DNA of 51,781 bases, taken from Actinomycetota bacterium. Lineage in GTDB: Bacteria > Actinomycetota > Acidimicrobiia > Acidimicrobiales > AC-14. The stretch is from assembly GCA_040754375.1 (NCBI GenBank), contig JBFMCT010000023.1:1-51781 (forward strand), in the 5' to 3' direction. A model generated the notes under the pieces. It made no database searches. It worked only from the letters and a program-made list of their open reading frames with translations, and had not been told where the DNA came from. Position 1 is the stretch's first letter. Every line of letters begins with the position of its first letter. This document shows positions 4,367-32,654 of the stretch, piece after piece. Made by a program: the position numbers and the translations under genes.

Positions 4367-4893
4367 CCTGTCAACCCCATTCCTAGTCTGGGTAGAGCGC
4401 CGAGATCAACGGTTTGGAGTGGTTTCGCCCTAATCCGAGCTAGCCCAGCGGGTATCCACATTTGCACGTGCCTCAGTCCACTAGTAATCCAGAGCCTTTC
4501 CACCCCCACCCCCCCTGGACACCGAGATCGATGCGCGTTGGCATGGCCGGTCAACCAATCTTGACGGCCTCTTCTGAGCGACCGAGATGATCGAGCCGAG
4601 ACGGCGGGTGCGTCCCGAAGGACCTGGCGAACACGTGTTCGATAATGGCCGAGCCACGCCGGGCGGTCAAGTTGGGGGTAGCTGCAAGGGGCCGGGGCCC
4701 GCGTCGGGCTGCCTACCGGCCCTGCCCCGGTGTCGGGCCTCCTCGGATCCGCTCTGCTTTCACCCGACCAAGCCGCTTTGGCCGGGGAAGGCCTGGCGGG
4801 TGGGCCCTGGCGCCGGGCCGGGCCCGGCCAGGCCGGGCCGGGCGGCTGTGGGCCCGGGCCCGGGGGCGGGCGGGAAATAGGATCCCCGACGGC
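4367..4893. other. Non-coding, very GC-rich spacer
   Basis: I find no convincing gene in these 527 bases. The left half has a C-rich run (CCACCCCCACCCCCCCTGG near 4500). The right half, about 4780-4875, is built of degenerate CCGGGCC/GGGCCCGG units. The forward frame of the next glycosyltransferase is open back to 4645, but the translation there is Gly/Pro/Ala/Arg-rich low complexity, so I place that gene's start at 4894. Confidence 0.5.
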
Positions 4894-6024
4894 GTGCGAG
4901 TCCTCCATGTGCAGAAGGCCAGTGGGGTCAACGGGGCCGAGCGCCATCTGCTCACGCTGCTGCCCGCTCTGGCCCGGCGGGGGTTCGACGTGGCTGCCTG
5001 GGTCATGGTGAACGACGACGGGCCGTCCTACGTGCGCCAGTTGCGGGCCGCAGGGGCGGAGGTCACCTCGGTGGCCGCCGGCCCCGACGCCAACCCGGTG
5101 GCGGCCGCCCGCCTGGTCGCGCAGGTGCGCCGGCACCGGCCCGACCTGCTGCATAGCCACCTGGTCCATGGCGACGTCTACGGCACGGCTGTGGCCCGGG
5201 TCACCGGGGTGCCGCTGGTGTCGTCGGTGCACGGCTGCCCGGCGTTCCTGCGCCGCCCCCCGCTGCGGGCCGTGGGCCGGGCCGTGGCCCGCAACGCGGC
5301 CCATCGCATCGCCATATCGACGGCCGTGGCCAGCTTCCTCGACGAGCTCGGCCTGGCCCTCCCTGGCCGGCTCACCGTCATCCCCTACGGCATCGACCAG
5401 GCCCGATGGGCCCCCCAGGAGGGGGAGGTGGAGGCCGCCCGCCGCTCCTACGGGGTCGGGCCCGACGAGGTGGTGGTGGGGGTCGCCTCCCGCCTGATCG
5501 CCCACAAGGGCCACGACGTGCTCGTCGACGCCATGGCCCTGGTACGGGCCGAGCACCCCCACGCCCGGCTCATGGTGGCCGGGACCGGCCCCCTGGAGGC
5601 CGCCCTGGTGGCCCAGGCCCGGGATCGCTTGGGCGACGGTGCCCGCTTCCTGGGCTTCGTCGACGACGTCCGCACGTTCATGCTGGCCTGCGACGTGATC
5701 GCCTTCCCCACCGCCCCCGAGTTCGGGGAGGGCTTCGGCCTGGCCGCCCTGGAGGCCATGGCCGCCGCCCGCCCGGTGGTGGGCACCCCTTTCGGGGCCA
5801 TCGCCGACCTGGTGGTCGACGGCGAGTGCGGCCTGATCGTGCCCCCGAACGAACCCCCGGCCCTGGCCCGGGCCCTGGCCTCGCTGGTGGCCGACGGCCC
5901 CCGGCGGGCCGCCATGGGGGAAGCGGCAACGGCCCGGGCCGCCACCCGCTTCAGCCTCGAGGCCATGGTCGACGCCACCGCCGAGGTCTACCGAGAGGTG
6001 GGCCCGTCCCGAACCGGTGTGTGA
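4894..6024 (+). CDS. GT4-family glycosyltransferase
   Basis: The 376-residue product is a GT-B glycosyltransferase. It starts directly with the first Rossmann strand and glycine loop (MRVLHVQKASGVNGAERHLL). The donor-binding half carries VVVGVASRLIAHKGHDVLVDA and the E-x7-E motif EFGEGFGLAALEAM typical of GT4 retaining enzymes. The GTG at 4894 is preferred over upstream in-frame starts because those add only low-complexity sequence. It would transfer a sugar from a nucleotide donor to a lipid-linked glycan at the cytoplasmic face. It faces another glycosyltransferase across a strong inverted repeat. Donor and acceptor are unknown. Confidence 0.9.
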   Translation: MRVLHVQKASGVNGAERHLLTLLPALARRGFDVAAWVMVNDDGPSYVRQLRAAGAEVTSVAAGPDANPVAAARLVAQVRRHRPDLLHSHLVHGDVYGTAVARVTGVPLVSSVHGCPAFLRRPPLRAVGRAVARNAAHRIAISTAVASFLDELGLALPGRLTVIPYGIDQARWAPQEGEVEAARRSYGVGPDEVVVGVASRLIAHKGHDVLVDAMALVRAEHPHARLMVAGTGPLEAALVAQARDRLGDGARFLGFVDDVRTFMLACDVIAFPTAPEFGEGFGLAALEAMAAARPVVGTPFGAIADLVVDGECGLIVPPNEPPALARALASLVADGPRRAAMGEAATARAATRFSLEAMVDATAEVYREVGPSRTGV

Positions 6025-7305: not shown

Positions 7306-9060
7306 GTGGCAGACGAGACTTCCCGTCTGTTCCAGTTGGAGTTCCGCGACTACTTCGAGATCATCCGGCGACGGAAGCTGACCGTCATCGGGGCCATCGT
7401 CGTCGTCTTCGTCACGGGGCTCTTCCTGTCTGTGCGCGAGCAGAAGATCTACCGCGCCTCGGCCGAGGTCCTGATCAACTCGGTCTCGTCCGCCGGGGCC
7501 GACGTGCAGCCCGACCTCGATACCGAGTCGAGGCTGGTCCAGAGCGAGGCCGTCAGGGCGCGGGCCAACGAGGAGGTGCCCGGGGTCGGTTCGGTGTCGG
7601 TCAGCATCATCGGCACCAAGATCGTGCGGGTGTCTGCCGAGGATGCCGTGCCCTCCCGGGCTGTCGAGACGGTCAATGCCTACGTCAAGGCCTACACCGA
7701 GTACCGCCAGGAGCAAGAGGTCGACCGCCTGCTGCGGGCCGCCGAGGAGACCGACGCCCGCATCGCCGACCTCGACCGCCAGGTGCGGGAGCTGTCGGAC
7801 CAGCTCGACGAGCGCCTGGCCGACGTGCAGGCCCGCTACGCGCCCGTGTTCGGCGAGACGGCCGCCGAGGCCGGGGCCCGCCAGCTCGCCCTGGCCCGCG
7901 AGACGGCCGCCGTGGAGGCCGAGCTGCGCCCCCGGCGGGACACCTTCCAGCGCCAGCAGCTCCTGCTGGAGGGCAACCTCCAAGAGCTGCTGGCCCGCAG
8001 CCAGAGGGCGGGCGAGGGCGTCCAGGTGCTGGCCTCGCCCACCGAGCCCACCGAGCCCATCCGCCCCAAGCCCGTGGAGGACGGGGTCAAGGCCTTCGGC
8101 ATGGGCCTGGTCCTGGGTCTCTGCCTGGCCTTTCTGTTCGAGTACTTCGACGACTCGGTCCAGTCCCGCGAAGACCTCCAGCGGGCCGTGGGCCACCAGA
8201 AAGCCGTCCTGGGGGTCATCCCCACGGCCCAGGCGTGGAAGGACGCGTCCCGTTCCGAGCTGGTGTCGATAACCGACCCCAAATCACCCACGGCCGAGGC
8301 GTACCGCGCCCTGCGGACCTCTGTGCACTTCGCCGGGCTCGAGGAGAAGCTGGCCGTGCTGTCGATCACCAGCCCCTCGCCCGGCGAAGGCAAGACCACG
8401 ACCCTGGCCAACCTGGCCGTGGTCCTGGCCGAGTCCGGCCGGCGGGTGGTGATCTTGGACTGCGACCTGCGCCGCCCCCGGGTCCACACCTTCTTCGGGC
8501 TGTCCAACGAGATCGGGTTCACGTCGGTGATGATCGGTGAGGCCCCGCTGTCGGTGGCCCTCCAGAAGGTGCCCGACGTGAGCCGGCTCTACCTGCTGGC
8601 GTCGGGGCCCATCCCCCCCAACCCGTCCGAGCTGCTGGCGTCCAGCCGGTTCGCGGACGTGTTGCGCCTGCTCAAGGCCGACGGCACGGTGCTGCTCATC
8701 GACACCCCACCGCTGCTGCCCGTGACCGACGCGGCCGTGATCGCCCCCCACTGCGACCGCACGCTCCTGGTGGTGGCGGCCGGCAAGAGCACCAAGAAGC
8801 ACGTGCGTAACGCCGTCGAGCTGCTCGAACAGGTCGATGCCCCCTTCGCCGGGGTGGTGCTCAACAAGGCCGACAACACCAAGCGCGACGGTTACTACCG
8901 CTACTACTACGCCACCGACGACGATTACCTGGCCGGCGACGGAGCCGGCCGCAACGGCGCGGCGCCGGCCCGCAACAGCTCGGCCAACGGTGCCCGCCAG
9001 CCGCCGGCCAACGGGGCCGCCCGCCGCCCGGCCAAAGCCAAGGCCCCCCGCCGCCGCTGA
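7306..9060 (+). CDS. Wzz-domain/bacterial tyrosine kinase fusion (CpsD/Wzc-like)
   Basis: The 584-residue protein has an N-terminal Wzz chain-length domain with a membrane helix at about 28-46, a periplasmic coiled-coil region (about 140-240), a second helix (about 265-285), and a cytoplasmic BY-kinase domain. Walker A is SPGEGKTT (358-365) and Walker A' is VVILDCDLRRP (from 381). A tyrosine-rich stretch (DGYYRYYYATDDDYL) near the C-terminus is the usual autophosphorylation cluster, followed by an unusual Asn/Ala/Pro/Lys-rich tail. Such proteins control polymer length and export by cycles of autophosphorylation. The GTG start is 7 bases after a -10-like TAGTCT (7294-7299), which suggests a leaderless transcript. 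Confidence 0.93.
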   Translation: MADETSRLFQLEFRDYFEIIRRRKLTVIGAIVVVFVTGLFLSVREQKIYRASAEVLINSVSSAGADVQPDLDTESRLVQSEAVRARANEEVPGVGSVSVSIIGTKIVRVSAEDAVPSRAVETVNAYVKAYTEYRQEQEVDRLLRAAEETDARIADLDRQVRELSDQLDERLADVQARYAPVFGETAAEAGARQLALARETAAVEAELRPRRDTFQRQQLLLEGNLQELLARSQRAGEGVQVLASPTEPTEPIRPKPVEDGVKAFGMGLVLGLCLAFLFEYFDDSVQSREDLQRAVGHQKAVLGVIPTAQAWKDASRSELVSITDPKSPTAEAYRALRTSVHFAGLEEKLAVLSITSPSPGEGKTTTLANLAVVLAESGRRVVILDCDLRRPRVHTFFGLSNEIGFTSVMIGEAPLSVALQKVPDVSRLYLLASGPIPPNPSELLASSRFADVLRLLKADGTVLLIDTPPLLPVTDAAVIAPHCDRTLLVVAAGKSTKKHVRNAVELLEQVDAPFAGVVLNKADNTKRDGYYRYYYATDDDYLAGDGAGRNGAAPARNSSANGARQPPANGAARRPAKAKAPRRR

Positions 9061-10496: not shown

Positions 10497-12314
10497 ATGT
10501 TGCGTTCTGGTCACAACCGGCGGATGCGCCAGACGGCGCAGGTGGCTCACGACGCCGTGTGCTGGGCCCTCGCCCTCGTGGTGGCAGCCACCCTGCGCTT
10601 CGACTTCAGGCTCAACCTCGTCGACTTCCGCTCTCTGGTGCGCCTGCTCCCGGTGCTGTTCGGAGCCCAGATCGTGGCCGGATTGTTGTTCGGGCTCTAC
10701 CGCGGCCGGTGGCGTTTCGGTGGTTTCGAAGAAGTCTTGGCCCTGGCCAAGGTCGTCGCCGTCACTTCAGGCGTCGCCTATATCGCCAACATCGCTATAG
10801 GTCCTCAGCCTCTACCGAGAAGTGTCCCGCCGGCGGCCGGCATCATTGCCTTGGTGCTGATGGCCGCCGGCCGCTACCTGCGCCGGTCGGTCCACGAGCA
10901 CCGGCGTCGGCCGTGCGCCGACGAATGCCAGCGCCTGCTCGTCTTCGGGGCGGGCGAAGCGGGCTCGCAGATCATCCGGTCGCTCCTGTGCAAGCCCGAC
11001 GGCCGCTTCCTGCCCGTGGCCCTTCTCGACGACGACCCGGCCAAGAAGAACCTGCGGATCATGCGGGTGCCGGTGGTCGGTGACCGCCACCAGATCGCCC
11101 AGGCGGCCAAGATCCTCGACGCATCGGTGCTGCTCATCGCCATTCCCAGCGCCGGTTCGCACCTGGTGACCGAGATCAGCGAGCTGGCCCTGGCTGCAGG
11201 CCTGGCCGTGAAGGTCCTGCCTTCGGTCGACGAGCTGGTGGACCAGGAGGCGGGGCCGGCCGACATCCGCGACATCACCCCTGCCGACTTGCTCGGCCGC
11301 CACGAGGTCCACACCGACATCGCGGCCATCGCCGGCTACCTGACCGGCAAGCGGGTGCTGGTGACCGGGGCCGGCGGTTCGATCGGTTCTGAACTGTGCC
11401 GCCAGATCGACAAGTTCGCCCCCGCCGAGCTGGTCATGGTCGACCGTGACGAGTCGGCCCTGCACGCCCTTCAACTGTCGATGACGGGCCGGGCCCTTCT
11501 CGATTCCCCCGAGCTCGTGCTGGCCGACCTGCGCGACCACGCCGAAGTCAGGCGGCTGGTCGTCAGGCGCAAGCCCGATGTGATCTTCCACGCGGCCGCC
11601 CTCAAGCACCTGGCCATGCTCGAGCGCCACCCGGCCGAGGCCGTGAAGACCAACGTGTGGGCCACCCTCAACCTGCTGGAGGCAGCCGTGGAAGCCGGCG
11701 TGGGCCGGTTCGTCAATATCTCGACCGACAAGGCCGCCGACCCCGAGAGCGTGCTTGGTTTCAGTAAGCGCATCACCGAGCGGCTTACTTCTCATATGTC
11801 AGCCCAGAGCCCGACTGTGTGCCTCAGTGTACGGTTCGGCAACGTGCTCGGCAGCCGGGGGTCGGTGCTCACCACCTTCCAGGCCCAGATCGACCGAGGA
11901 GGGCCCATTACCGTCACCCACCCCGACGTCACCCGCTACTTCATGACCGTCGAGGAGGCTGTGCAACTCGTCATCCAGGCCGGGGCCATCGGCTCCGACG
12001 GCGAGGTCATGGTGCTCGACATGGGCAAGCCCGTGCGCATCGCCGAGGTGGCCAACGTCCTGGCCGCCCGCTCCCCCCGCCCCATCCCCGTCCAGTTCAC
12101 CGGCCTGCGCCCCGGCGAGAAGCTCCACGAGGTTCTGTTCGCGGAGGGCGAAGACGGCTCGTGCCGCCATCACCCCCTCATCTCCCACGTCCCCGCCCCG
12201 CCCCTGCACCCCGAGCTGGTCCGCGAGATCGACACCACGACGACCGTCGGCCACCTCACCGCCGTCCTCTGCGACGTCTGCTTCCGCGACGTCCGGGCTC
12301 CCCGCCTAGGGTGA
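10497..12314 (+). CDS. Membrane UDP-sugar 4,6-dehydratase (PglF/CapD/FlaA1-like)
   Basis: The 605-residue protein is built like PglF/CapD/WbpM: four N-terminal membrane segments (to about residue 125), a CoA-binding-like Rossmann module (RLLVFGAGEAG), and a C-terminal dehydratase domain with TGAGGSIGSE (290-299). The active site carries STDKA and the motif FSKRITE, where most SDR enzymes have Y-x3-K; this family lacks the tyrosine. The reaction would be UDP-GlcNAc to its 4-keto-6-deoxy derivative, the first step to di-N-acetyl-bacillosamine, QuiNAc or FucNAc-type sugars. Its stop overlaps a GTG start of the lasso B1 gene (GTGA at 12311-12314), so it may head the lasso operon. Confidence 0.92.
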   Translation: MLRSGHNRRMRQTAQVAHDAVCWALALVVAATLRFDFRLNLVDFRSLVRLLPVLFGAQIVAGLLFGLYRGRWRFGGFEEVLALAKVVAVTSGVAYIANIAIGPQPLPRSVPPAAGIIALVLMAAGRYLRRSVHEHRRRPCADECQRLLVFGAGEAGSQIIRSLLCKPDGRFLPVALLDDDPAKKNLRIMRVPVVGDRHQIAQAAKILDASVLLIAIPSAGSHLVTEISELALAAGLAVKVLPSVDELVDQEAGPADIRDITPADLLGRHEVHTDIAAIAGYLTGKRVLVTGAGGSIGSELCRQIDKFAPAELVMVDRDESALHALQLSMTGRALLDSPELVLADLRDHAEVRRLVVRRKPDVIFHAAALKHLAMLERHPAEAVKTNVWATLNLLEAAVEAGVGRFVNISTDKAADPESVLGFSKRITERLTSHMSAQSPTVCLSVRFGNVLGSRGSVLTTFQAQIDRGGPITVTHPDVTRYFMTVEEAVQLVIQAGAIGSDGEVMVLDMGKPVRIAEVANVLAARSPRPIPVQFTGLRPGEKLHEVLFAEGEDGSCRHHPLISHVPAPPLHPELVREIDTTTTVGHLTAVLCDVCFRDVRAPRLG

Positions 12315-12625
12315 GCGCGAGCTTCGGCTGCGATCCCATGGAGACCATGCGCGTTAGCGATCATTGCGAATGGCGGGCCATCGAGGGCGAGGTTGTGGTT
12401 CTCGACCTGCGCACGGAGCTCTACCTCAGCTTCAACGACACGGGTGCCGCGCTGTGGCGCGGCCTGGCCGCAGGGGCGACTGGCGACGAGCTGGTCGAGC
12501 GCCTCGTGACGGCATACGAGGTTGAGGAGTCGGCAGCGCGCACTGACGTGGTCGCATTTCTGGGCGAGCTGGTCGCGCTGGGTCTGGTGGAAAGTGTCGA
12601 GCCTGATGCCGATCCGCATGGTTGA
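12311..12625 (+). CDS. Lasso peptide B1 protein (PqqD-like RiPP recognition element)
   Basis: The product (104 residues from GTG 12311, 95 from ATG 12338, 92 from ATG 12347) is a PqqD-like RiPP recognition element. The core is EWRAIEGEVVVLDLRTELYL-SFNDTGAALWRGL followed by helices with TGDELVERLVTAYEV and FLGELVALGLVE. In lasso clusters this small protein binds the precursor's leader peptide and presents it to the B2 protease. I list the GTG because it overlaps the upstream stop by four bases, as at other junctions here, although the ATG at 12347 has a GGAG just ahead. It overlaps the B2 gene by 20 bases. Confidence 0.88.
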   Translation: MSASFGCDPMETMRVSDHCEWRAIEGEVVVLDLRTELYLSFNDTGAALWRGLAAGATGDELVERLVTAYEVEESAARTDVVAFLGELVALGLVESVEPDADPHG

Positions 12626-12980
12626 CCGCCCTCGCCTGCGGTCGGCCTGGTGGGCGGCCGGCGCCCTGCGGGGCCTGCGTCGCCCGAGCAGCGCGCTGTG
12701 CGCGTTGCCGCCACCACCGCCGGATCTCGACGACGACGCGCAGTGGGGCGTCCGAGTAATGCTGCGTCTCGGCCGGGCCACCTGCCTGGAACGTTCCCGC
12801 ATCTTGCAGGCATGGGAGGTGGCTCACGGACGTTTGTGTGATGTAGTGATCGGCGTCAGCCGCCCGTCCGACGGCTTCAAGGCCCACGCCTGGCTGGCGC
12901 GGCGAACTTCCTCCGCACCGCCCGTCGGCCCGTTCGAAGAGCTGGCCCGGCTGCCCGGCACGGACACGCCTCCTCGGTGA
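12606..12980 (+). CDS. Lasso peptide B2 protein (transglutaminase-like leader peptidase)
   Basis: The 124-residue protein matches the lasso B2 family: the nucleophile region ATCLERSRILQAW places Cys60, and VVIGVSRPSDGFKAHAWL places His94. These enzymes cut the leader from the precursor. The usual third catalytic acid, an aspartate roughly twelve residues after the histidine in McjB, is not visible, because the protein reads RRTSSAPPVGP there. The segment is therefore divergent and may use another residue. An ATG at 12618 is a possible alternative start. The gene overlaps B1 by 20 bases and ends in a GTGA overlap with the cyclase gene. Confidence 0.85.
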   Translation: MPIRMVDRPRLRSAWWAAGALRGLRRPSSALCALPPPPPDLDDDAQWGVRVMLRLGRATCLERSRILQAWEVAHGRLCDVVIGVSRPSDGFKAHAWLARRTSSAPPVGPFEELARLPGTDTPPR

Positions 12981-14743
12981 CGCTTCCCCCCCTCGCCAAC
13001 CTCTTCGCCTTCTCCTCGCCCGACCGAAGGCTACGGGGCGAGGTCGAGGCCGACCTCATTGCCGCCCGGTCGTTCGCCGAGGTGTGGCGCCCCCACCCCC
13101 AGTGGGTGGTGGCCGAGGCACCCCTGCCCGAGTCACCGCCCACGGTGGAGGCGGCGAGGCGGGCCGGGCTCGTGTTCGTGGAAGGCCGCGACCGCCTCAT
13201 CAGCAGGGCCCGGCCCGAGGACGACACCGCCGGCCTCCTCGACGTCTTGGCCGCCGGCCCCGGCCGGCTTGCCACCCTGCCCGGCGACTTCGGCCTCGTC
13301 CACTTCCGGGACGACGGGTCGGCTGTCGTGGTGCGGTCGTGCGCGGGGCGTGTGCCCCTGTACGTGTGGGCCGATGGCGCGGAGGTAGCCATCGCCACCC
13401 TGCAACGGGACCTGGTCGCCCACCTACCCGGTGAGATCAGGATCGACCCTCTCTCGCATGCCACGTGGATGAGTTGCAGGGGCTTCACCCCCGACAACCG
13501 GACGTTCGTGGCGGGGGCGACGATCGTGCCCTCCGGCCACCGGGCCGTGGTGGCCCCGGCGGCTCCCGTTCGTCCGGAGCGCTACTGGGACCCGAGACCC
13601 GAGCGGCCGGTCAGCAGCTCCGCCCGGATCGTCACCGACCACGCCGCCCGGCTGCGGGAGCTACTGGTGGGCAATCTCGCCTTGGAGCTCGATCGCGGGG
13701 GTCGCAACCTCTTGAGCGCCAGCGGGGGAGTGGACTCATCGGCGATCGGGGCCCTCGCCGCCGGGCCGGCGGGGCGCCCGATCAACGTGGCGGTCAGCCT
13801 GGTCCCTCGTCCCGGGCCCAAGCTGGAACATGAGCACAGCTACATCACCCCACTGCTCGATCACCTCAACGTCGCCCGGCGCTACGAGTTCGGGGCATAC
13901 CCGGGGGCCATCGACGGCTTGCAGCGGGACGCATCGCCGTCGTTCTTCCCCAAGTTCCATCCCGTCTTGTGCGTGCTCGACCGCGTGGTAAACGAGACGG
14001 GGGTGCTGACCTATGTAGGTGGGGAATTCTGCGACGACCTGTTCGGGGCGCCGGTGCTGCACGACTGGAACGTCTCGGCGCCACCCTGGCAGGCCCTGGC
14101 GAGGACGGGTCGCGACCTGCATGGCCGGGCCTCGCTGCTCCGCTGGTGCAGGGACCGGGCCGCTGGCGTGCTCGGATGGAGGCTGACGGACCTACCGGAC
14201 CGTCTGCCCGAACCGGTCAACTCTGAGCTCCAGGCCGAGTACGAGCAGTGGCGGCGTGGCCAACGCCGCTATCCCACCGGGGCTCATCGAGCGCGCCGCA
14301 ACCTGATGGAGCGGTTCCCCTGTGGCGTGAGCTGGTTGGAGATGAACTGGGAGATCAGCTCGTCCTACGGTGTGCGCCGGGTGCTTCCCTTCGTGACCCG
14401 GGACATGCTCGAACTGGCTGCTGCCTGCCACCCACAGGAGGTCCTGGCCGACGGTCCCAAGACGCTGTTGCGCCGCGGCCTGCGGGACGACGTGCCCCAC
14501 CGGAACCTCTACCGGCCCGACAAGGGGGCGTTCCTGCGGGGAGAGCCGCGCCCGCCAAGGTCGAGCCCGACCGGCTTTCCCTCAGAGGCCGCCGCGATCT
14601 TGGACAAGTCCTGGCTTGCTCGATCCCGCTCATGCGAGCGATCCGTGGCGTGGGCCCTCCTCTTACTGCTACGATCCCTCAGCGAGTTTGGGCGGCAACG
14701 GTCGCAGCGGCCGGGCCTTTCGTACAGCACGGAGGCAACGTGA
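12977..14743 (+). CDS. Lasso peptide macrolactam synthetase (C protein, asparagine synthetase homologue)
   Basis: The 588-residue protein has the two domains of asparagine synthetase B: a glutamine-amidotransferase-like N-terminus without the catalytic Cys2 (it begins MTLPPLANL), and an ATP-pyrophosphatase domain with SGGVDSS at 249-255. Loss of Cys2 is typical of lasso cyclases, which adenylate an Asp/Glu side chain of the core and join it to the new N-terminus. The start is a GTG overlapping the B2 stop (GTGA, 12977-12980), and its own stop overlaps the GTG of the precursor gene (14740-14743). Both junctions imply translational coupling. Confidence 0.92.
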   Translation: MTLPPLANLFAFSSPDRRLRGEVEADLIAARSFAEVWRPHPQWVVAEAPLPESPPTVEAARRAGLVFVEGRDRLISRARPEDDTAGLLDVLAAGPGRLATLPGDFGLVHFRDDGSAVVVRSCAGRVPLYVWADGAEVAIATLQRDLVAHLPGEIRIDPLSHATWMSCRGFTPDNRTFVAGATIVPSGHRAVVAPAAPVRPERYWDPRPERPVSSSARIVTDHAARLRELLVGNLALELDRGGRNLLSASGGVDSSAIGALAAGPAGRPINVAVSLVPRPGPKLEHEHSYITPLLDHLNVARRYEFGAYPGAIDGLQRDASPSFFPKFHPVLCVLDRVVNETGVLTYVGGEFCDDLFGAPVLHDWNVSAPPWQALARTGRDLHGRASLLRWCRDRAAGVLGWRLTDLPDRLPEPVNSELQAEYEQWRRGQRRYPTGAHRARRNLMERFPCGVSWLEMNWEISSSYGVRRVLPFVTRDMLELAAACHPQEVLADGPKTLLRRGLRDDVPHRNLYRPDKGAFLRGEPRPPRSSPTGFPSEAAAILDKSWLARSRSCERSVAWALLLLLRSLSEFGRQRSQRPGLSYSTEAT

Positions 14744-14883
14744 AGGACGGGACGAAGGCGAAGTGTCGGGCGCCGTACGAGAGGCCAGCCATCCGGGAGT
14801 TGGGCACCCTAAGTGACTTAACCCTTGGAGCAGCGGATGGTCCGCCTGGGGTCGACCTCGTTGTCTTAAGCGCCGGCCTTTAG
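14740..14883 (+). CDS. Lasso peptide precursor (A), 47 residues
   Basis: The frame begins with a GTG that overlaps the cyclase stop by four bases and has GGAGG at 14731-14735. Residues 13-28 fit the lasso leader pattern Y-x2-P-x-L/I-x3-G-x5-T: Y13, P16, I18, G22, T28. The C-terminal part reads G30 then AADGPPGVDLVVLSAGL (31-47). If Thr is at position -2 as in lariatin, the core starts at G30 and the acid residues fall at 4 and 10, outside the usual ring sizes of 7-9. If cleavage is one residue later, A31 and D39 give a 9-membered ring. S44 is the only hydroxyl residue after the leader and is the candidate site for kinase action. It is short and easily missed. Confidence 0.85.
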   Translation: MKDGTKAKCRAPYERPAIRELGTLSDLTLGAADGPPGVDLVVLSAGL

Positions 14884-14892
14884 TCAAGTCAA

Positions 14893-14931
14893 GCTAGCCG
14901 ACGAGGAAGGCGAAGTAACGATCAGGCTAGC
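14893..14931 (+). promoter_or_regulatory. Stem-loop behind the lasso precursor gene
   Basis: GCTAGCC (14893-14899) pairs perfectly with GGCTAGC (14925-14931), 10 bases after the precursor stop. The loop holds a strong ribosome-binding-like GAGGAAGG (14903-14910). Such a hairpin could protect the precursor mRNA end or partly terminate transcription, so that precursor exceeds the enzymes, and could mask the ribosome site of the next gene. The role is inferred from position only. Confidence 0.5.
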
Positions 14932-14944
14932 GGTCCGGGTTCTC

Positions 14945-15838
14945 TTGCTGGACCGCGCTGCGGGGAGGGTAACGGCCACCTTACGATCCGAAAGCATACC
15001 CAGCGTGCTTCTCAAGGGCGTGAGCACCCAGCGGTTGCTGTACCCCGGTGGGTTCCGTCCTTATGGCGATGTCGACCTCCTCGTATCGCCTTATGACTGG
15101 ACGAAGTCGATCAGTTGCCTCAAGCGTTTGGGTTTCGATGACGTGTTTAGACCGCCGAACGAAGAGAAGCACTCCAGGCCCTTCCGACGCGCCGACGGCG
15201 TCGTAGTCGACCTGCATCGGTCCCTCGTGACCGCGTCGTGCAGCCCCGAGGAGTGCTGGGTGGTGCTCTCGGGACGGACCACGACGCAGACGTGCGGTGG
15301 AGAGGCGGTGGCGATGCTCGACCCGCCGGCGCTGGTGGCCGTCGTCGCCCTCCACGCCGCCCAGCACGGGCATGCCGAACCCAAGCCCATCGCCGATCTC
15401 ATCCGGGCGGTCAGCCGGATGGGCGAGGACGTGTGGCAGGAGGCAGCCGAAGTGGCTGCTCGCTTGGGCGCGGCCGAGACGATGGCTGCCGGCCTCCGTA
15501 TGGTGCCGGGCGGTGATGCCATGGCTGCCCGCCTGGGCCTGCCAGGGCAACTGAGCGCCGCCGTCCGCCTCCGTGCCGCCTCAGCTCCGTCGGCGTCCGT
15601 CGAGCTGGCTCGGATCGTGGCGGCCAGCGACCGGGAGGAGCGCCGCCGCCTCCTGCGGCCTGTTCTGATGCCCACCGACGTGGAGCTCAGGCGGCGGGCC
15701 TGGGCGCGCCGGGTCGCACCGTGGCCCGGCGGGCGCGTCCTGGCCAGGCTGGTGTGGTGGGCACGCCTGTCGGTGGAGGTCCCTGGGGCGGCAGCGTGGT
15801 GGTGGCGTCACCGAAGGGACGGGCCGGCCACTCCGTGA
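14945..15838 (+). CDS. Nucleotidyltransferase-like protein (NTP_transf_5) of the lasso cluster
   Basis: The 297-residue protein carries the pol-beta-type nucleotidyltransferase signature PSVLLKG followed by RPYGDVDLLV (about 40-49), as in the NTP_transf_5 family. Relatives sit in lasso clusters beside HprK-like kinases; in the pseudomycoidin system such a protein was linked to adding sugars onto the phosphorylated peptide. The N-terminus is shorter than usual. The start is doubtful: the frame has no ATG or GTG near it, TTG 14945 lacks a ribosome site, and GAGGAAGG at 14903-14910 instead precedes GTA 14915 and ATC 14921 in the same open frame. Its stop overlaps the kinase start (GTGA at 15835-15838). 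Confidence 0.8.
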   Translation: MLDRAAGRVTATLRSESIPSVLLKGVSTQRLLYPGGFRPYGDVDLLVSPYDWTKSISCLKRLGFDDVFRPPNEEKHSRPFRRADGVVVDLHRSLVTASCSPEECWVVLSGRTTTQTCGGEAVAMLDPPALVAVVALHAAQHGHAEPKPIADLIRAVSRMGEDVWQEAAEVAARLGAAETMAAGLRMVPGGDAMAARLGLPGQLSAAVRLRAASAPSASVELARIVAASDREERRRLLRPVLMPTDVELRRRAWARRVAPWPGGRVLARLVWWARLSVEVPGAAAWWWRHRRDGPATP

Positions 15839-16698
15839 AGGCGGCGTACGGGCTGGTGATCGCCGGACCGGTCGTGTCTCCCGGCCTGGCGGCTTTGGTT
15901 CCCGACACCGAGCGGGTGCCACCGGGCTGGCCCACGGTGACCCTTCACCACCGGCAGGGCTCAGGCGCTGAGCCTCCTACGGCGGTCACGACCTCCCACG
16001 CCGTCCTCGCCTCCCCGGCCGGTCGGCACCTGGTGTTCGACCGGCGGACCATGACGGCCACCGTCGTCGCTCCGCAGTGCCCCGACGACTACGTGCTCGC
16101 GCACCCGTGCCTGGCTGGAGTCGGCATGGTGGTGGCGTGCTGGCTGGGACGATCGGCCCTGCACGGCGGGGCGTTCCTGGGCACGACCGGGGCGTGGGGT
16201 GTCCTGGGCGGCGTCAAAGCCGGTAAGAGCACAACCCTCGCCGCCCTGCACCATCGTGGTCGTACTGTTCTGGCCGACGACCTGCTGATCGTCGATGCTG
16301 GCCTCGTGCTGGCCGGGCCCCGCGTGCTTTCGCTCCGCCTCGACGCGGCGGAGCGGCTGGCCCCCGACGCTGCGAGGGTCGGCATCGGGGGGGAGCTCCG
16401 CGCCCGCCTCAGGCTTCGTCCCGCCCCGGTGGCCACTCCGCTGAGCGGGCTGCTGCTGGTCGAGCTGCACGAGGGCCACCCGCATGTGAAGACGGCGCCC
16501 ATCCCGCCGTCCGAGAGGTTCGACGTGCTGGCCACCCACCTGGCGCAGCGCTACGTGATGCCATCCGCCCTGGGTCTCCTCGAACTGGCGACGGTCCCGA
16601 TGTGGCGTGTGACCGCCCCCCGAAGCTGGTCGGCGATCGATCGGCTGGTGGGCGCCATTGACGAGATCGCCGACGGGCACGGCGTCGATGCCGCCTGA
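15835..16698 (+). CDS. HprK-like kinase 1 of the lasso cluster
   Basis: The 287-residue protein resembles the C-terminal half of HPr kinase. The P-loop is GGVKAGKST (125-133), followed by the VLADDLLIVD segment that corresponds to the conserved Asp-Asp of HprK. A Walker-type region preceded by a conserved histidine (GRSALHGGAF) is also typical. Lasso-associated kinases of this family phosphorylate a serine of the precursor, the C-terminal one in paeninodin. The GTG start overlaps the nucleotidyltransferase stop by four bases and is preferred to the open frame upstream. A second copy lies beyond the ABC transporter gene. Confidence 0.85.
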   Translation: MKAAYGLVIAGPVVSPGLAALVPDTERVPPGWPTVTLHHRQGSGAEPPTAVTTSHAVLASPAGRHLVFDRRTMTATVVAPQCPDDYVLAHPCLAGVGMVVACWLGRSALHGGAFLGTTGAWGVLGGVKAGKSTTLAALHHRGRTVLADDLLIVDAGLVLAGPRVLSLRLDAAERLAPDAARVGIGGELRARLRLRPAPVATPLSGLLLVELHEGHPHVKTAPIPPSERFDVLATHLAQRYVMPSALGLLELATVPMWRVTAPRSWSAIDRLVGAIDEIADGHGVDAA

Positions 16699-16719
16699 CA
16701 GGTCGATGCCGCCTGACAG
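16684..16719 (+). repeat. 18-bp tandem duplication over the exporter start
   Basis: The 18-base unit GTCGATGCCGCCTGACAG occurs at 16684-16701 and 16702-16719, and GTCGATG begins a third time at 16720. The first unit contains the stop of kinase 1 and the first ATG of the ABC gene. The duplication produces three in-frame ATGs (16688, 16706, 16724) for the exporter; the second and third follow GACAGGTCG. Confidence 0.9.
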
Positions 16720-18505
16720 GTCGATGACGTCGACGGCCCGCCCGGGCCGGCTGGGCATGATCAGGTCGATCGTGGCCGGAGTCCGCATGGTGTGGCGGGC
16801 GGCGCCCCGTGAGTTCGTGGTCCTGGCCGTAGCGCAGGTGGTGGCCGGCATGGCCGTGCTGGCCGAGATCCTCGTGGCCCGCAGGGCGCTGACCGAGCTG
16901 CTGGAAGCCGAGCGGCGGGGGGTGGGGCTAGGCGACGCGCTGCCGTGGATCGTGGCCGTCCTAGTGCTCCACAGCCTCGTGCTCGTGGGCCTGGCCGTAC
17001 AGTCCGAGCGCCAGCGGCTGGTAGCCGAGAAGACGGCTCGGCGGGCCACCGGCATGGTGCTCGACGTGGCCGGTCGCGTGAGCCAGGCCGCCTACGACTC
17101 CCCCGCCTTCTACGACCGCCTCGAGCGGGCTCGGGCCAGCGCCCTGGTGCGCCCCATGCAGTTCGCCGTCGGGCTGGTGTCAGCAATGGCGGGCGCGGCG
17201 ATCACGGGAGGCGTAGCCATCGCCCTCCTGCTGATCGAGCCCCTGCTCGTGGCGGTCGGCCTGGTCTCGCTCCCCGTCGTCCTGCTCGTCGCCCGCCGCA
17301 ACACCGGCGACACCTACGCGCTGGCTCTGCGCATCACCGCCGACGACCGCCGCCGGCTCCACCTGGAGGACGTGCTGAGCAGCGTCCAGTACAGCAAGGA
17401 GGTGCGGGCCTACGGGCTGGTGGGCTACGTGCGCAGCGCCTATGAGGAGCTCTATCGCCGGCGCATCGGGGCCATCACCGAGCTGGTGGCCCGCCGGATG
17501 TGGAGAGCGTGCCTTTCGGCGGGGATGGCTGTTCTCGGCCTGATCGGGGCCGCCGTCGCCGTGCGCTGGCTGGTCCAGTTGGGCCGCCTCGACCTGGCGG
17601 CCGCGGGCGCCGCCCTCCTCGGGCTCATCCTGCTGTCCCAACGGGTCAACGGGCTGGCCACCGGGGTCGGCGGGCTGATGGAGGCGGCGGTGTTCCTCGA
17701 CGACATCCGGGCGCTCGACGCCGAGTGGCCGCCGGGGCCTGAACCCGAGGGCAGCCTCCCGGTCCTCGACCGGCTCAGGTTGGACGGCGTGACGTTCACG
17801 TACCCCGGCTGCGAGAAGCCGGTTGTGCGTGATGTCTCCCTGGAGATCTGTCGCGGCGAGGTCATCGGCCTCGTCGGCGAGAACGGCTCCGGCAAGACCA
17901 CGCTGGTGAAGCTGCTGTGCGGGCTCTACTCCCCGTCGACCGGGGCGGTCGAGTGGAACGGCGCGGCGGTGAGCCCGGGCGACACCCCCCTGCTGCGGGA
18001 TCGCACCGCCGTGCTGTTTCAGGACTACGCCCGCTACCAGCTCTCAAGCTCCCTCAACATCGGCACGGGGCGGGTCGAGCGGGTCGACGACCATAACGGG
18101 ATCCACCAGGCGGCTGAGCGGGCCGGGGCGGCCGGCATAGTGGCGGCGCTGCCGGCCGGCTACGACACCGTGCTCAGCCGGGCCTTCGAGGCGGGAGCGG
18201 AGCTGTCGGCCGGGCAGTGGCAGCGGGTGGCGCTGGCCCGGGCCCTGTTCCGCGACGCCGATCTGGTGATCCTCGACGAGCCGACCGCCTCCCTCGACGC
18301 CCGGGCGGAGCAGCAGCTCTACGGCGAGATCCGGGAGATGGCGGCCCACCGGGCCGTCGTCCTGGTGAGCCACCGGGCCGAGAGCCTTCTGAGCACCGAC
18401 AGGATCTACGTGATGCACGAGGGCCGGCTGGTCGAGTCGGGCACCCACGTGGAGCTGACGAAGGCGGCCGGGCCCTTCACCGCGCTATTCGGTCCGGGTT
18501 CGTAG
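16688..18505 (+). CDS. Lasso peptide ABC exporter (D protein)
   Basis: The 605-residue protein fuses a six-helix ABC exporter membrane domain (about 40-330) with a nucleotide-binding domain: Walker A GENGSGKTT (397-405), signature LSAGQ (506-510), Walker B LVILDEP (526-532). In lasso clusters this half-transporter dimerises to export the mature peptide and often gives self-immunity. The N-terminus is ambiguous because a duplicated 18-base unit gives three in-frame ATGs, so MPPDRS occurs twice before MTSTARPG; 16724 gives the shortest form. The first ATG overlaps the kinase 1 stop, and kinase 2 follows after four bases. Confidence 0.9.
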   Translation: MPPDRSMPPDRSMTSTARPGRLGMIRSIVAGVRMVWRAAPREFVVLAVAQVVAGMAVLAEILVARRALTELLEAERRGVGLGDALPWIVAVLVLHSLVLVGLAVQSERQRLVAEKTARRATGMVLDVAGRVSQAAYDSPAFYDRLERARASALVRPMQFAVGLVSAMAGAAITGGVAIALLLIEPLLVAVGLVSLPVVLLVARRNTGDTYALALRITADDRRRLHLEDVLSSVQYSKEVRAYGLVGYVRSAYEELYRRRIGAITELVARRMWRACLSAGMAVLGLIGAAVAVRWLVQLGRLDLAAAGAALLGLILLSQRVNGLATGVGGLMEAAVFLDDIRALDAEWPPGPEPEGSLPVLDRLRLDGVTFTYPGCEKPVVRDVSLEICRGEVIGLVGENGSGKTTLVKLLCGLYSPSTGAVEWNGAAVSPGDTPLLRDRTAVLFQDYARYQLSSSLNIGTGRVERVDDHNGIHQAAERAGAAGIVAALPAGYDTVLSRAFEAGAELSAGQWQRVALARALFRDADLVILDEPTASLDARAEQQLYGEIREMAAHRAVVLVSHRAESLLSTDRIYVMHEGRLVESGTHVELTKAAGPFTALFGPGS

Positions 18506-18509
18506 CCTC

Positions 18510-19349
18510 GTGTTTCCGTGGGCGGCCTATGGGCTCCGTCTCGGTGGTCCCGTCCTCGTCCCGCCGCTGACCGACCAGCTCCTCCGGGTCGGTGAGGGAT
18601 CGGCAAGCTGGCCCCCGGTGAGCATCGAGACGACGGTCGTGAACGGGCAACCGCCGGCCTTCGCCTCGACCAGCGAGCGGCTGTGCCGGCCCTTCCTCTA
18701 CGGCACCCACTACGTGGTGGACCGAGTCTCCGGCCGGGCCACGTTCGCCGGCGACGTCGCACCGGGCGGCGACGTGGTCGTTCATCCCGGTCTCGTCGGG
18801 GTGGCAGCTGCCTATGCCCTGTGGCTTGGGCGGGCAGCGTTCCATGCCGGAGGGTTCATCTCGCGAGAAGGGGCTTGGGCGATCGTTGGAGCCAAGGGAG
18901 AAGGGAAGACGACCCTATTGGCAGCCCTGGCGGGCCGTGGGGCGGCCATCCTCGCCGACGACCTCCTGGTCCTAGACGGGCTCACCGCCCTGGCCGGTCC
19001 TCGGACCCTCGACCTCCGCCCGGATGCGGCGGCGCTGGTGGGCCAGGCCCAGGTGACGACCCGGGTCCGCAACGGGGAGCGGGGTCGCCTGCACGTCGAC
19101 GTGGTGCCCCTGGCCGTTCCCTTCCGGGGGTGGGTCGAACTGCGCGCGGGACCGGTCGTGGCCCTCGATCCGGTGCCCCCCGCAGAGCGCGTCAGCCTTA
19201 TGGCGCCCCATGCGTTGAGGCCGCTAGGCCCCGCCCGGGCGGCGACGTTGCTCCACCTGGCTAGCCGGCCCGCCTGGCGGCTGCAGCGCCCCAAGCGCCC
19301 CGAGGCGCTCGCCGAGTGCGTCGATATGCTGGAGACGCTGCTTCGATGA
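18510..19349 (+). CDS. HprK-like kinase 2 of the lasso cluster
   Basis: The 279-residue protein is a distant paralogue of kinase 1, with P-loop GAKGEGKTT (127-135), the preceding GRAAFHAGGF histidine motif and ILADDLLVLD. Both kinases share the overall plan, but identity looks low outside the motifs, so this is not a recent duplication. Two such kinases in one lasso operon are unusual; one may act on the peptide and the other on a sugar or act as a non-catalytic partner. The GTG starts four bases after the exporter stop, and the gene ends in an ATGA overlap with the glycosyltransferase gene. Confidence 0.83.
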   Translation: MFPWAAYGLRLGGPVLVPPLTDQLLRVGEGSASWPPVSIETTVVNGQPPAFASTSERLCRPFLYGTHYVVDRVSGRATFAGDVAPGGDVVVHPGLVGVAAAYALWLGRAAFHAGGFISREGAWAIVGAKGEGKTTLLAALAGRGAAILADDLLVLDGLTALAGPRTLDLRPDAAALVGQAQVTTRVRNGERGRLHVDVVPLAVPFRGWVELRAGPVVALDPVPPAERVSLMAPHALRPLGPARAATLLHLASRPAWRLQRPKRPEALAECVDMLETLLR

Positions 19350-20329
19350 GACGGCTATCGGTGGTGACCCCCACCTTCGACCGGCCCGCTGAGGTGGCCG
19401 GGATGCTGGCCAATCTGGCGGCGCAGACGGCCCTCCCCGACGAGCTGATCCTCGTTGATGGTTCGCCTCCCGGCGATCTGCGCACCGAGGGCGCCGTTAG
19501 GGACGCTGAGGACCTGCCCTTCCCGGTGACCTATCTGCGGGCCACGGGGGGCGCCGCCCTTCAGCGCAATGTCGGTATCGACATGGCATCCGGAGAATTC
19601 GTGGCCCTGATCGACGACGACGTCAGGCTCGCGCCGGCCTTCTTCGAGCGAATCCTGGCGGCGTTCGCGCAGGATTCCGAGGGCGACACCGGGTGCATCG
19701 CCGGATGCCTCCTCAATCCGCCTCGTGACCAGCTCCGCCGGTTCCGGTGGGCCATCCACAAGTGGCTCGGCACCAGGCGAGGGCAGTTGGCTGGCACCTT
19801 CGACTGGGGCAGCGGTCACATCTTCTCGAGGATTTGTGAGGACCCCGGGGAAGAGCTGCGGCGGGTCGACGTCGTCGGTAGCGGTTGCGCGGTCTGGCGA
19901 CGCGCCGTCTTCGACCAGGGTTACCGCTTCTCGCCCTACTTCCATACGTACTCGTACAACGAGGACTTCCATCTCGCGCTCCGCGCCGGGCACCAATGGC
20001 GGATCTTCGATCTGGGCGCGGCACGCTTCGAGCACCTCCAAGCCCGTGCTGGTCGCCCGCCGGCGTGGGACGGGATGGCTCATCAGGTAATCAATAGTCG
20101 ATTCCTGTTTGTCGACCTAGTTCCTGCTCGCACAACCAGCCAGGAAGCGCGGTTCTGGGGCCGGCACGGGGTCGATCTCGTCGGTCGTCTCTTCCTTGCC
20201 ATGGCCAGGCCGACCGGTGACGCGTGGCGTGAAGCGTCTGGCCATGCGGCGGGCATGATACGGGCGTACCGGCGCTGGCCGGGGAGAAGGGCTACGTCCA
20301 GTCCCTCGGACCGTAGCGACGAAATCTGA
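19346..20329 (+). CDS. Family 2 glycosyltransferase coupled to the lasso operon
   Basis: The 327-residue protein is a GT-A enzyme: SVVTPTFDRPAEVAGMLANL at the start, LILVDGSP, and the metal-binding ALIDDDVRLAP; the acceptor half contains VVGSGCAVWRRAVF and YNEDFHLALRAG (the general-base ED). The ATG overlaps the kinase 2 stop (ATGA, 19346-19349), so it belongs to the same translation chain as the lasso genes. It could glycosylate the lasso peptide, perhaps with the deoxy-sugar made by the dehydratase at the other end of the operon, or it could be the first gene of the polysaccharide set. I cannot decide from sequence. Confidence 0.85.
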   Translation: MRRLSVVTPTFDRPAEVAGMLANLAAQTALPDELILVDGSPPGDLRTEGAVRDAEDLPFPVTYLRATGGAALQRNVGIDMASGEFVALIDDDVRLAPAFFERILAAFAQDSEGDTGCIAGCLLNPPRDQLRRFRWAIHKWLGTRRGQLAGTFDWGSGHIFSRICEDPGEELRRVDVVGSGCAVWRRAVFDQGYRFSPYFHTYSYNEDFHLALRAGHQWRIFDLGAARFEHLQARAGRPPAWDGMAHQVINSRFLFVDLVPARTTSQEARFWGRHGVDLVGRLFLAMARPTGDAWREASGHAAGMIRAYRRWPGRRATSSPSDRSDEI

Positions 20330-30554: not shown

Positions 30555-31157
30555 CTGATCGAATTGGGATCTCTATCTCGAACTCAGAAACACCTCACCC
30601 CCCGGCTAAGCGTGTGAGCGCATCATTCTCTCGACTGCACGCGGAACCTGTACTGCTTCTGGGTAAGGTAGGGTACGTTCAATGGCGGTCACTCAGCTGC
30701 ACGCTCAACTTCGCCACGCCCTTCATCGTCCTGATAGTAGAACCACGCGAGTGATTGAGCATGTCTCCGTGAAGGGCCAGTCGGGCGGACCCCTAATGCA
30801 GGCATGGCACCGCCCGAGGTCCAGGCTATGGCTACGAGTACGAACAACCCGGGCGAGTCCCCCGCTTCGGAACCACCGCATTGAACCAGAGGAGTACGCG
30901 TGTGTTGGATGCCTAGTGACTGTTCTGGGAGGATCGTGTGGTAGTAGAACGAGCTAATCAGCTTCAGGGTATTAGCAGGTCTGGGTACATAAGACGTCGC
31001 ATCACGGACACTGACTCCGAACGCTTACCTAAGTTACAAATCCGCGTCGGGACCGGGCGTCGCCGTCCGGGGACAACTCCTGTCAGACTCGGGCCGATCG
31101 TCCAGTGAAGGCAAGTGCTGGTTGCAACAGGGACTCGGACACCGAGGAGTCGTCCCC
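30555..31157. other. Spacer before the flippase gene
   Basis: I see no supported gene in these 603 bases. Composition is less GC-rich than the window's left arm. GAGGAG at 31144-31149 is the ribosome site of the flippase gene, and its promoter presumably lies here. Confidence 0.45.
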
Positions 31158-32654
31158 ATGAGCGATCAACCGCCGCACAGCCTGAGCATCCGGACGCTAC
31201 GCGGCGCAGCCTGGCTGTTCGCGAGCAGCTGGGTGCGAGCTATACTTAGCATCGCGATCGTTGCCGTCCTTAGCCGGATACTAACTCCGCTACAATTCGG
31301 AGTCGTTGGTGCGGCGCTAGTCGTGATCGGACTGGCGGAGCGGCTTGCTGAAGCGGGGCTGAACCACGCACTCGTCCAGGTCAAGGACCTCACACAGGCC
31401 CATGTGAGGACCGCATTTACTCTCACGATGACAGTGTCAGCAATCTTCGGCGCGGCCACCGCTATCAGTGCGGAACCCATCGGAAGATTCTTTGGAATCG
31501 AGGAGCTCCCGCCCGTCCTGCGGGTCATGGCGCTCCTATTCCCCCTTGACGCGATAGCCGGAACTTCTAAGCGACTGCTGCAGCGCGAGATGAGGTTCAG
31601 GCACTATGGTGCGGCTGATGTGCTTTCGACAGCACTCGGCTTCGGTCTCGTGGGGATCGTCTCGGCCGTTCTTGGAGCCGGAGTGTGGAGTCTCGTGTTC
31701 GCACACTTCGGACAGACATTTGTGATGGCAACCTACTGCATTATAGCGCAACCGCACAGCCTTAGACTACAAATCGACCGCGGGGCACTACGAGACTTGG
31801 TCCGGGTGGGTGGCGGCTTTGCTCTAACCGAGATATTTACGTACTGCGCCCGACGCGGCGACAACTTAATGGTGGGTAAGCTACTCGGCGCTAGCGCCCT
31901 CGGACTCTACGGGCGCGCGTACGCGTTGATGGACCAAGCTAACCAGCTTATCGCGAGCGTGGTGCAAACGGCGATGTTCCCGGCAGCATCCCGGGTCCAA
32001 CAGGATGTCGAGCGGCTTCGTCTGGGTTATGTACGAGGCCTCGCCATCACGTTCGTTATCTTCATCCCATCGGGCGCCGTTGCTGCGCTACTGGCTCCAG
32101 AGATCATTGGAGTGCTACTAGGGAGTCAGTGGTCGCCTGCTATAGGACCCTTCCAGATACTAGCCGCCGGAATGTCTCTTCGAGCTGGATTCAAGCTCAG
32201 CAGCACCATTCTCCAGGCTAAGGGCGCGGTCTACAGGATGGCACGCTTGGAGTTCGTGTACGCCATGGTCGTCATCGGTGGCGCAGCGATCGGGTCCCAG
32301 TGGGGTGTTAGTGGCGTAGCCACATCGACCCTGGTCGGCGTCGCAGTCTCATTCTTCCTCACAGCTGGCCTTGCGATGAAGGTCTGTGGCATTCGACGGC
32401 GTGACCTCATAGGGATATCTACACCGGGGGTGAGGCTGGCACTAGCATCGGTAGCTGTAGTCGCACCACCGACCCTGCTCTGTCGCCACTATGCGTTGCC
32501 GCAGATCCTTACGCTCGGGGTTGCAATGGCGCTACTGGCGATCATGTTGCTGGCCCTTGCGAGGCGCTATGGACGCCAACTGTTTGGCGAGCACGGCGTG
32601 TGGCTCATCCAGTCAATCAGTATTCCGCTGTCCCGCCGCTTCCTCCCACGCTGA
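31158..32654 (+). CDS. Wzx/WzxC-type polysaccharide flippase
   Basis: The 498-residue protein is strongly hydrophobic with about 12-14 membrane segments, and begins SLSIRTLRGAAWLFASSWVR, the usual opening of MATE/WzxC-type polysaccharide transporters; it also has the family's segment FGVVGAALVVIGLAERLAEA-GLNHALVQ. It would flip the lipid-linked repeat unit across the cytoplasmic membrane. The ATG at 31158 has GAGGAG eight bases ahead and is chosen over the upstream in-frame start at 31122. Its 3' end overlaps the convergent methyltransferase gene by 42 bases. Confidence 0.9.
   Translation: MSDQPPHSLSIRTLRGAAWLFASSWVRAILSIAIVAVLSRILTPLQFGVVGAALVVIGLAERLAEAGLNHALVQVKDLTQAHVRTAFTLTMTVSAIFGAATAISAEPIGRFFGIEELPPVLRVMALLFPLDAIAGTSKRLLQREMRFRHYGAADVLSTALGFGLVGIVSAVLGAGVWSLVFAHFGQTFVMATYCIIAQPHSLRLQIDRGALRDLVRVGGGFALTEIFTYCARRGDNLMVGKLLGASALGLYGRAYALMDQANQLIASVVQTAMFPAASRVQQDVERLRLGYVRGLAITFVIFIPSGAVAALLAPEIIGVLLGSQWSPAIGPFQILAAGMSLRAGFKLSSTILQAKGAVYRMARLEFVYAMVVIGGAAIGSQWGVSGVATSTLVGVAVSFFLTAGLAMKVCGIRRRDLIGISTPGVRLALASVAVVAPPTLLCRHYALPQILTLGVAMALLAIMLLALARRYGRQLFGEHGVWLIQSISIPLSRRFLPR

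Follow-up and report, generated by a model that had tools for sequence, protein, structure and literature searches.

The 51,781-nucleotide window analyzed here, that is, the whole stretch of DNA, derives from contig 23 (JBFMCT010000023.1) of an Acidimicrobiales bacterium, whose 3.5 Mb draft genome comprises 105 contigs and is 97% complete with 1.5% contamination. It harbors a one-strand run of nine genes with the composition of a lasso-peptide operon, to which two HprK-like kinases (K1 and K2), a nucleotidyltransferase (NT) and a glycosyltransferase of family 2 (GT2) are added. The run was checked by translation and by Pfam and NCBIfam profile scans with curated cut-offs, and presents the following genes in this order:

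12311..12625, + strand: B1, recognition element (RRE) of ribosomally synthesized and post-translationally modified peptides, PqqD type (PqqD 58.4 bits, cut-off 23.4)
12618..12980, + strand: B2, leader peptidase (NCBIfam lasso_biosyn_B2 37.2 bits, cut-off 33)
12977..14743, + strand: C, lasso cyclase of the asparagine-synthetase type (Asn_synthase 33.1 bits, cut-off 21)
14740..14883, + strand: A, precursor (lasso_leader_L3, NF033521, 23.2 bits, cut-off 19)
14945..15838, + strand: NT, NTP_transf_5 protein (PF14907), PsmN-like (88.7 bits, cut-off 31.2)
15835..16698, + strand: K1, HprK-like kinase with H110, G130-K131-S132 and D148-D149 (motif, fold)
16688..18505, + strand: ABC exporter, permease and ATPase (ABC_tran 108.4 bits, cut-off 25)
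18510..19349, + strand: K2, HprK-like kinase with H112, G132-K133-T134 and D150-D151 (motif, fold, K1 paralogue)
19346..20329, + strand: GT2, glycosyltransferase family 2 (Glycos_transf_2 61.3 bits, cut-off 23.3)

The curated cut-offs were passed by B1, B2, C, A, NT, ABC and GT2, which rules out chance matches for these seven genes. The RRE, the Cys protease and the Asn-synthetase-type cyclase of lasso clusters are all present; the cyclase is a full-length protein of 588 aa with an intact SGGVDS motif, and Cys56 and His90 of B2 are identical in 22 of the 22 aligned B2 rows (three of them repeats, leaving 19 different ones). The paeninodin-type kinase, with its H, P-loop GK[ST] and DD, is present in both K1 and K2, and the NTP_transf_5 protein of the pseudomycoidin type is found as well.

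The genes are tightly packed, with GTGA overlaps at B2/C, C/A and NT/K1, an ATGA overlap at K2/GT2, and 8 and 11 bases shared by B1/B2 and K1/ABC, respectively, while A/NT are separated by 61 bases and a gap of 246 bases lies downstream of GT2. A preliminary description of this DNA, made from the letters and a list of reading frames, had placed the same nine genes in the same order and on a single strand at almost exactly these positions, and its GTGA/ATGA and 11-base overlaps were borne out as well; the 4 bases that it read as an overlap between ABC and K2 are instead a 4-base gap. At the upstream end, the GTGA at 12311-12314 joins B1 to the preceding polysaccharide gene by a 4-base overlap, provided that translation of B1 begins at the first GTG, ATG codons at 12338 and 12347 being alternative starts. 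No sigma-70-type promoter or intrinsic terminator beyond chance was found at either operon end. The first ATG, GTG or TTG of the NT frame is the unusual TTG at 14945. The stretch 14884-14945 holds a Shine-Dalgarno-like GAGGAAGG upstream of NT, and no in-frame start codon of these three kinds precedes that TTG.

The precursor A consists of the leader YERPAIRELGTLSDLT-L, followed by the core GAADGPPGVDLVVLSAGL if cleavage takes place after T-L. The leader spacing is canonical (Y-17, P-14, I-12, G-8, T-2). The core has 18 residues, with D4 and D10 as its only acids, a single Ser (S15) and no Thr, Tyr or Cys, and it terminates in S-A-G-L, so that Ser15 is fourth from the end and the C-terminal Ser typical of paeninodin is not found in it. 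The first usable acid, Asp10, implies that the ring has ten residues or that cleavage is displaced; a cut one residue later would give Ala1-Asp9. Structurally characterized lasso rings contain 7, 8 or 9 residues, and engineered fusilassin tolerated rings of 7-10 (PMC13352647). Either arrangement, Asp10 or the later cut, is truly peculiar where the cyclase is full-length.

Acid positions in the cores of relatives were counted by eye from T-2, in the small number of loci that yielded a leader (the pattern search was null in several lasso-like loci, among them L155, L189 and L200). A normal position was observed in five loci carrying B2, cyclase and leader (L106, L197 and L203 with D9, L201 and L050 with D8). 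Odd cores occur in L036, with no acid at 7-9, and in L041, with the first acid at 11, and the cyclases of these loci are short (400 and 423 aa). Other precursors seen in this comparison deserve mention in their own right. In L050 (10964-11404, +), a Peptidase_S74 (endosialidase chaperone) domain that could be a self-cleaving C-terminal follower is joined to a lasso leader with its core (FGGTVDADG..., acid at 8); the fusion adjoins NT, B2, kinase and C, and a second S74 copy without leader lies at 10615-10911. The leaders at L107:10606-10758 and L116:11656-11793 end 3-4 residues past T-2/R-1 (FSVV, FSF), in loci where B1, B2, kinase and NT are present and no cyclase was found, and their products are possibly tiny phosphopeptides. 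L043 (6912-7661) presents a tandem array of seven leader peptides, several of whose cores are very short and contain DGS; nearby are a kinase, B1, B2 and a 385-aa cyclase that lacks the glutaminase-like half, with a lipid A acyltransferase-like gene in between. Finally, the predicted core at L201:14266-14418 (-) starts with Asn (NGVGSGID..., acid at 8), as in metanodin, reported as the first lasso peptide seen with Asn1 (PMC12670498).

Neither K1 nor K2 reached any Pfam or NCBIfam cut-off, and they are assigned as kinases from the motif, a weak match to 3tqf and the fold. The invariant residues of a 16-row alignment (e.g., H112, G132-K133 and D150-D151 in K2 numbering) occur in both kinases, and both keep the residues found important in BsfK, except for the middle P-loop Gly, which was dispensable in BsfK (PMC10368454). 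Searched against the PDB sequences, the profile of the kinase alignment gave a single weak match (E 0.0036, 50 residues), to the Hpr(Ser) kinase 3tqf. The predicted models (predicted local distance difference test, pLDDT, of 85 for K1 and 77 for K2) suggest HprK/PEPCK-like folds for both proteins, the fold search placing PEPCK first and HprK/P chains lower down; the PEPCK and HprK/P families have a common fold. The two HprK-like kinases proposed in the preliminary description agree with these intact motifs and models.

Over their full length, K1 and K2 share 37% identity. They are sister rows in a tree of 84 rows and long ends, with support of 93/92, just under the starred level; a second kinase unrelated to the first was consequently rejected. 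The branches after the duplication measure 0.89 and 1.04, and the pair represents an old duplication within the lineage as sampled. Their clade consists mostly of kinases whose loci also encode PqqD or lasso proteins. A separate tandem kinase pair (100/100) occurs in L048 beside B1, B2 and three leaders, where no cyclase was found. This duplicated set (L048:9583-12303) has a tryptophan-halogenase-like gene upstream.

Searches of the genome itself revealed one lasso leader, one B2, one NT, two HprK-like kinases and two PqqD proteins, so that both kinases face one known precursor. A kinase pair serving two precursors was considered, and no second lasso leader was found in the genome, where a divergent leader could escape. 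Phosphorylation of the core at two sites was rejected, as it offers a single Ser and neither Thr nor Tyr. Hence, the doubly tailored lasso peptide put forward in the preliminary description retains its genes for phosphate and sugar tailoring, with GT2 inside the run, and only one possible reading of it, with two core phosphosites, falls away. A single Ser and two kinases suggest a relay, polyphosphate extension or a mixed oligomer.

Several published systems share parts of this architecture. Pseudomycoidin (psm) of Bacillus pseudomycoides likewise combines lasso genes with an HprK-like kinase and an NT that adds hexoses on phospho-Ser (PMC9266682, PMC8498205), but it differs in having one kinase, a C-terminal Ser and a Firmicute host, and the available text mentions no GT2. 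Paeninodin (pade) of Paenibacillus also has an HprK-like kinase acting on the lasso precursor, although with one kinase, a C-terminal Ser and, in the accessible text, no mention of NT or GT2 (PMC9266682). The bsf cluster of Bradymonas presents lasso genes, a discrete B1 that aids the kinase, and a nucleotidyltransferase, differing in its one kinase, its site at Ser3 and an Ile at -2 (PMC10368454). The clusters for linear polyphosphorylated peptides (LPP) resemble the window in RRE, HprK-like kinase, NTP transferase, MsbA-like exporter and polysaccharide neighborhood, but carry one kinase, no cyclase and a signal-peptidase-like protease (PMC13381572), whereas the window has C and B2. The lasso clusters of Butyrivibrio fibrisolvens contain nucleotidyltransferase, HPr kinase and GT family 2 as here, plus EpsH; they were described in silico in a Firmicute, and the text available does not state two kinases (PMC7533575). 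Kinases occur in 85% and glycosyltransferases in 36% of Butyrivibrio lasso clusters (PMC7533575). The combination of NT, kinase and GT2 is therefore not new, being already in print. No lasso operon with two HprK kinases appeared in the literature among the matches listed, a coverage from which subscription papers are mostly absent, and no literature on HPr-rel-A systems was found. A study by Sun (2025) reportedly deals, by its title, with iterative sugars on one residue of a mature lasso peptide.

Relatives were surveyed in 100 regions, mainly the top NT matches, many cut by contig ends and some overlapping (L046 = L196). Genes were called with purpose-built hidden Markov models (HMMs) with score floors, which weak B2, C and kinases may escape, and the GT2 of the window served as the starting sequence for the GT2 HMM. 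PF14907 was present in 109 of the 395 genomes of the class, 97 above cut-off. Among 111 NT hits in 105 loci, a kinase lay within the neighbor limit of 7 kb in 75, indicating that NT and kinase travel together, and kinase plus B1 in 68. B2 was near 13 of the 111 hits (L201, with B2 just outside the limit, is not among them), and 11 of these 13 had a kinase, with one kinase in ten and two in the window; two kinases were also seen at two NT loci without B2 (L157 and L167). GT2, kinase and NT co-occurred without B2 at 19 NT hits in 17 loci and with B2 at three (L106, L203 and the window), GT2 being 6-7 kb off and outside the run in L106 and L203. An orthologous relation between the window's GT2 and those of other NT/kinase loci was unsupported, BLAST identities being 25-32% over 90-136 residues (best 15). 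Recurrent PqqD-kinase-GT2-NT sets in which lasso B2/C were not detected (L163, L154, L119, L131, L188, L195, L108 and L110) look like a separate non-lasso phospho-glyco peptide system. The kinases of the three loci scanned for it (L040, L042 and L046) adjoin a polysaccharide-type Wzz/AAA_31 gene. A contig scan with K1/K2 alone retrieved no relatives, and one with A4 as query retrieved four (L205-L208).

In a sample of the phylum, 20 of 396 genomes had a kinase match (E 1e-8 or better). In G266, two kinases lie 30 kb apart, and the HMMs found no NT, B2 or cyclase in either region. G511 showed two weak kinase matches 7 kb apart, and its locus L217, called with our own HMMs, contains three HprK-like kinases, NT, two cyclases, B2, up to three B1-like genes and two GT2, besides two leaders found by pattern, over about 15 kb of a single-contig genome. 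Pfam confirmed its NT, both Asn_synthase, Transglut_core3 and both Glycos_transf_2. Of the kinases, two show weak matches to Hpr_kinase_C under the cut-off (E 0.0005 and 0.002) and one has no match; a single B1-like gene was scanned, and it has no Pfam match either. The starts given by the open-reading-frame tool result in a 4-base overlap of one GT2 with this B1-like gene, which in turn shares 8 bases with a kinase. Like the window, L217 thus has several kinases, NT, B2 and a 4-base-overlapping GT2, but it differs in its short cyclases (394 and 408 aa), two precursors and genes on both strands. The idea that several kinases with a coupled GT2 are unique to the window was accordingly rejected.

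The operon is embedded in a polysaccharide locus, whose genes flank it on both sides, as revealed by profile scans of part of the window genes. The neighbors with coordinates are:

4645-6024: GT4-type glycosyltransferase, upstream of the operon
7306-9060: Wzz/ParA-type gene, upstream of the operon
10497..12314, + strand: polysaccharide gene of the UDP-sugar dehydratase type (Polysacc_synt_2, Pfam 320 bits), probably a neighbor outside the lasso pathway
31122-32654: flippase, downstream of the operon

Besides this flippase, the downstream genes comprise a 2-hydroxyacid dehydrogenase, an epimerase, CTP_transf_3, a GT4-type gene, a sulfotransferase, a polysaccharide deacetylase and a carbamoyltransferase.

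We infer a one-precursor lasso operon of the paeninodin/pseudomycoidin kind, a tentative reading to which we give slightly less than even weight, in which both kinases would act on Ser15, followed by NT and perhaps GT2. B1 would capture the leader and pass the precursor to B2 and C; B2 would cut after T-L and C would close the macrolactam. K1 and K2 would phosphorylate Ser15, the only core hydroxyl, and most likely share the site, one adding the first phosphate and the other extending it or changing the donor, or both forming a mixed oligomer. In the manner reported for PsmN, NT would then transfer a hexose unit onto the phosphate; the sugar may be extended by GT2, and ABC would export the product into the surface-polysaccharide environment. 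That both kinases act on peptide A is about an even matter, and for GT2 the chance falls a little below that. Precedents for such steps are the action of PadeK on its precursor and the phosphorylation of a C-terminal Ser by PsmK with subsequent glycosylation by PsmN (PMC9266682), as well as the several phosphates placed on one Ser by the HprK-like LppK (PMC13381572).

A number of observations pull the other way. With the cut after T-L there is no Asp or Glu at core positions 7-9, and the product might not be a standard lasso peptide; the position of Ser15 differs from the C-terminal site of PadeK/PsmK and from residue 3 of BsfK/LppK; NT looks short, about 50 N-terminal model positions of NTP_transf_5 being unmatched; and LppN, an NT of the same kind, was inactive in a heterologous host (PMC13381572). 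LppN is suspected to need a partner (PMC13381572), and by analogy GT2 might be such a partner here. Moreover, the preliminary description had named the absence of GT2 and one kinase from the operon of close relatives as evidence against its reading, and this is borne out in part: the lasso runs of the nearest relatives available (L050 in G003 and L201 in G002, of the same family, and L203 in G340, with the closest cyclase at 33%) have one kinase and no GT2, K2 and GT2 being absent; no same-genus relative turned up in the relative searches. The GC content of GT2 (0.666) is close to that of the downstream dehydrogenase (0.671) and away from that of K2 (0.724), which is weak evidence that GT2 is a polysaccharide gene. 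It is in fact a serious possibility, only somewhat less probable than the one-precursor pathway, that the lasso part stops at K2 and GT2 merely trails it: polysaccharide genes bracket the operon, and GT2 resembles the GT2s of other NT/kinase loci as distantly as given above. The ATGA overlap with K2, the gap after GT2 and the frequency of GT2 near NT-kinase sets without B2, and in L217, speak against this; as GTGA also joins the Polysacc_synt_2 gene to B1, the overlap by itself cannot assign GT2 to the peptide, and GT2 may belong to either the peptide pathway or the polysaccharide locus.

Rather doubtful, but to be taken into account, is that one kinase modifies the peptide while the other phosphorylates a different target (sugar, lipid carrier or regulator) or serves as a structural partner. 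The one core Ser and the long post-duplication branches are consistent with such a division, which is opposed by the catalytic set kept in both proteins and by a clade residing mostly in PqqD/lasso loci. It is unlikely that C makes another bond or none, giving a linear or differently cyclized phospho-glycopeptide related to the LPP family. The missing acid at 7-9 would fit this outcome, as would the oddity of same-clade kin (the cores and short cyclases of L036 and L041, the cyclase not found in L048) and the RRE, HprK, NT and ABC that LPP clusters have in common with the window (PMC13381572), but the full-length C with its motif, B2 and the canonical Y-17, P-14 and T-2 of the leader argue for a lasso, and L203, the nearest cyclase locus, has a canonical G1-D9 core. 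A misassembly or mixed contig is very improbable: the 105-contig draft and the odd NT start are compatible with it, whereas the nine unbroken reading frames, their tight overlaps and the completeness and low contamination of the genome contradict it. As an extension of the preferred one-precursor pathway, we regard as speculative and quite improbable a ten-residue-ring lasso (Gly1-Asp10) whose tail Ser would be an anchor on which the kinases lay a phosphate or short chain and NT and GT2 build a glycan, the product being destined for the surface polysaccharide and not a free antibiotic.

The operon truly belongs to the phospho-glyco lasso kind, of which it is a slightly unusual example. Its novelty is smaller than had been claimed, since NT, kinase and GT2 together are in print and several-kinase loci recur (L217 and L048), and it is odder than first noticed in one respect, its Asp10 core. 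As far as the available reports tell, activity of an NTP_transf_5 protein has been seen for PsmN only, LppN being silent in its host. An operon with one Ser, two kinases and NT plus GT2 provides a clean test case, in which deletions would be readable as a mass change on one residue, and its Asp10 core raises the question of whether rings of more than nine residues are possible in natural lasso peptides.

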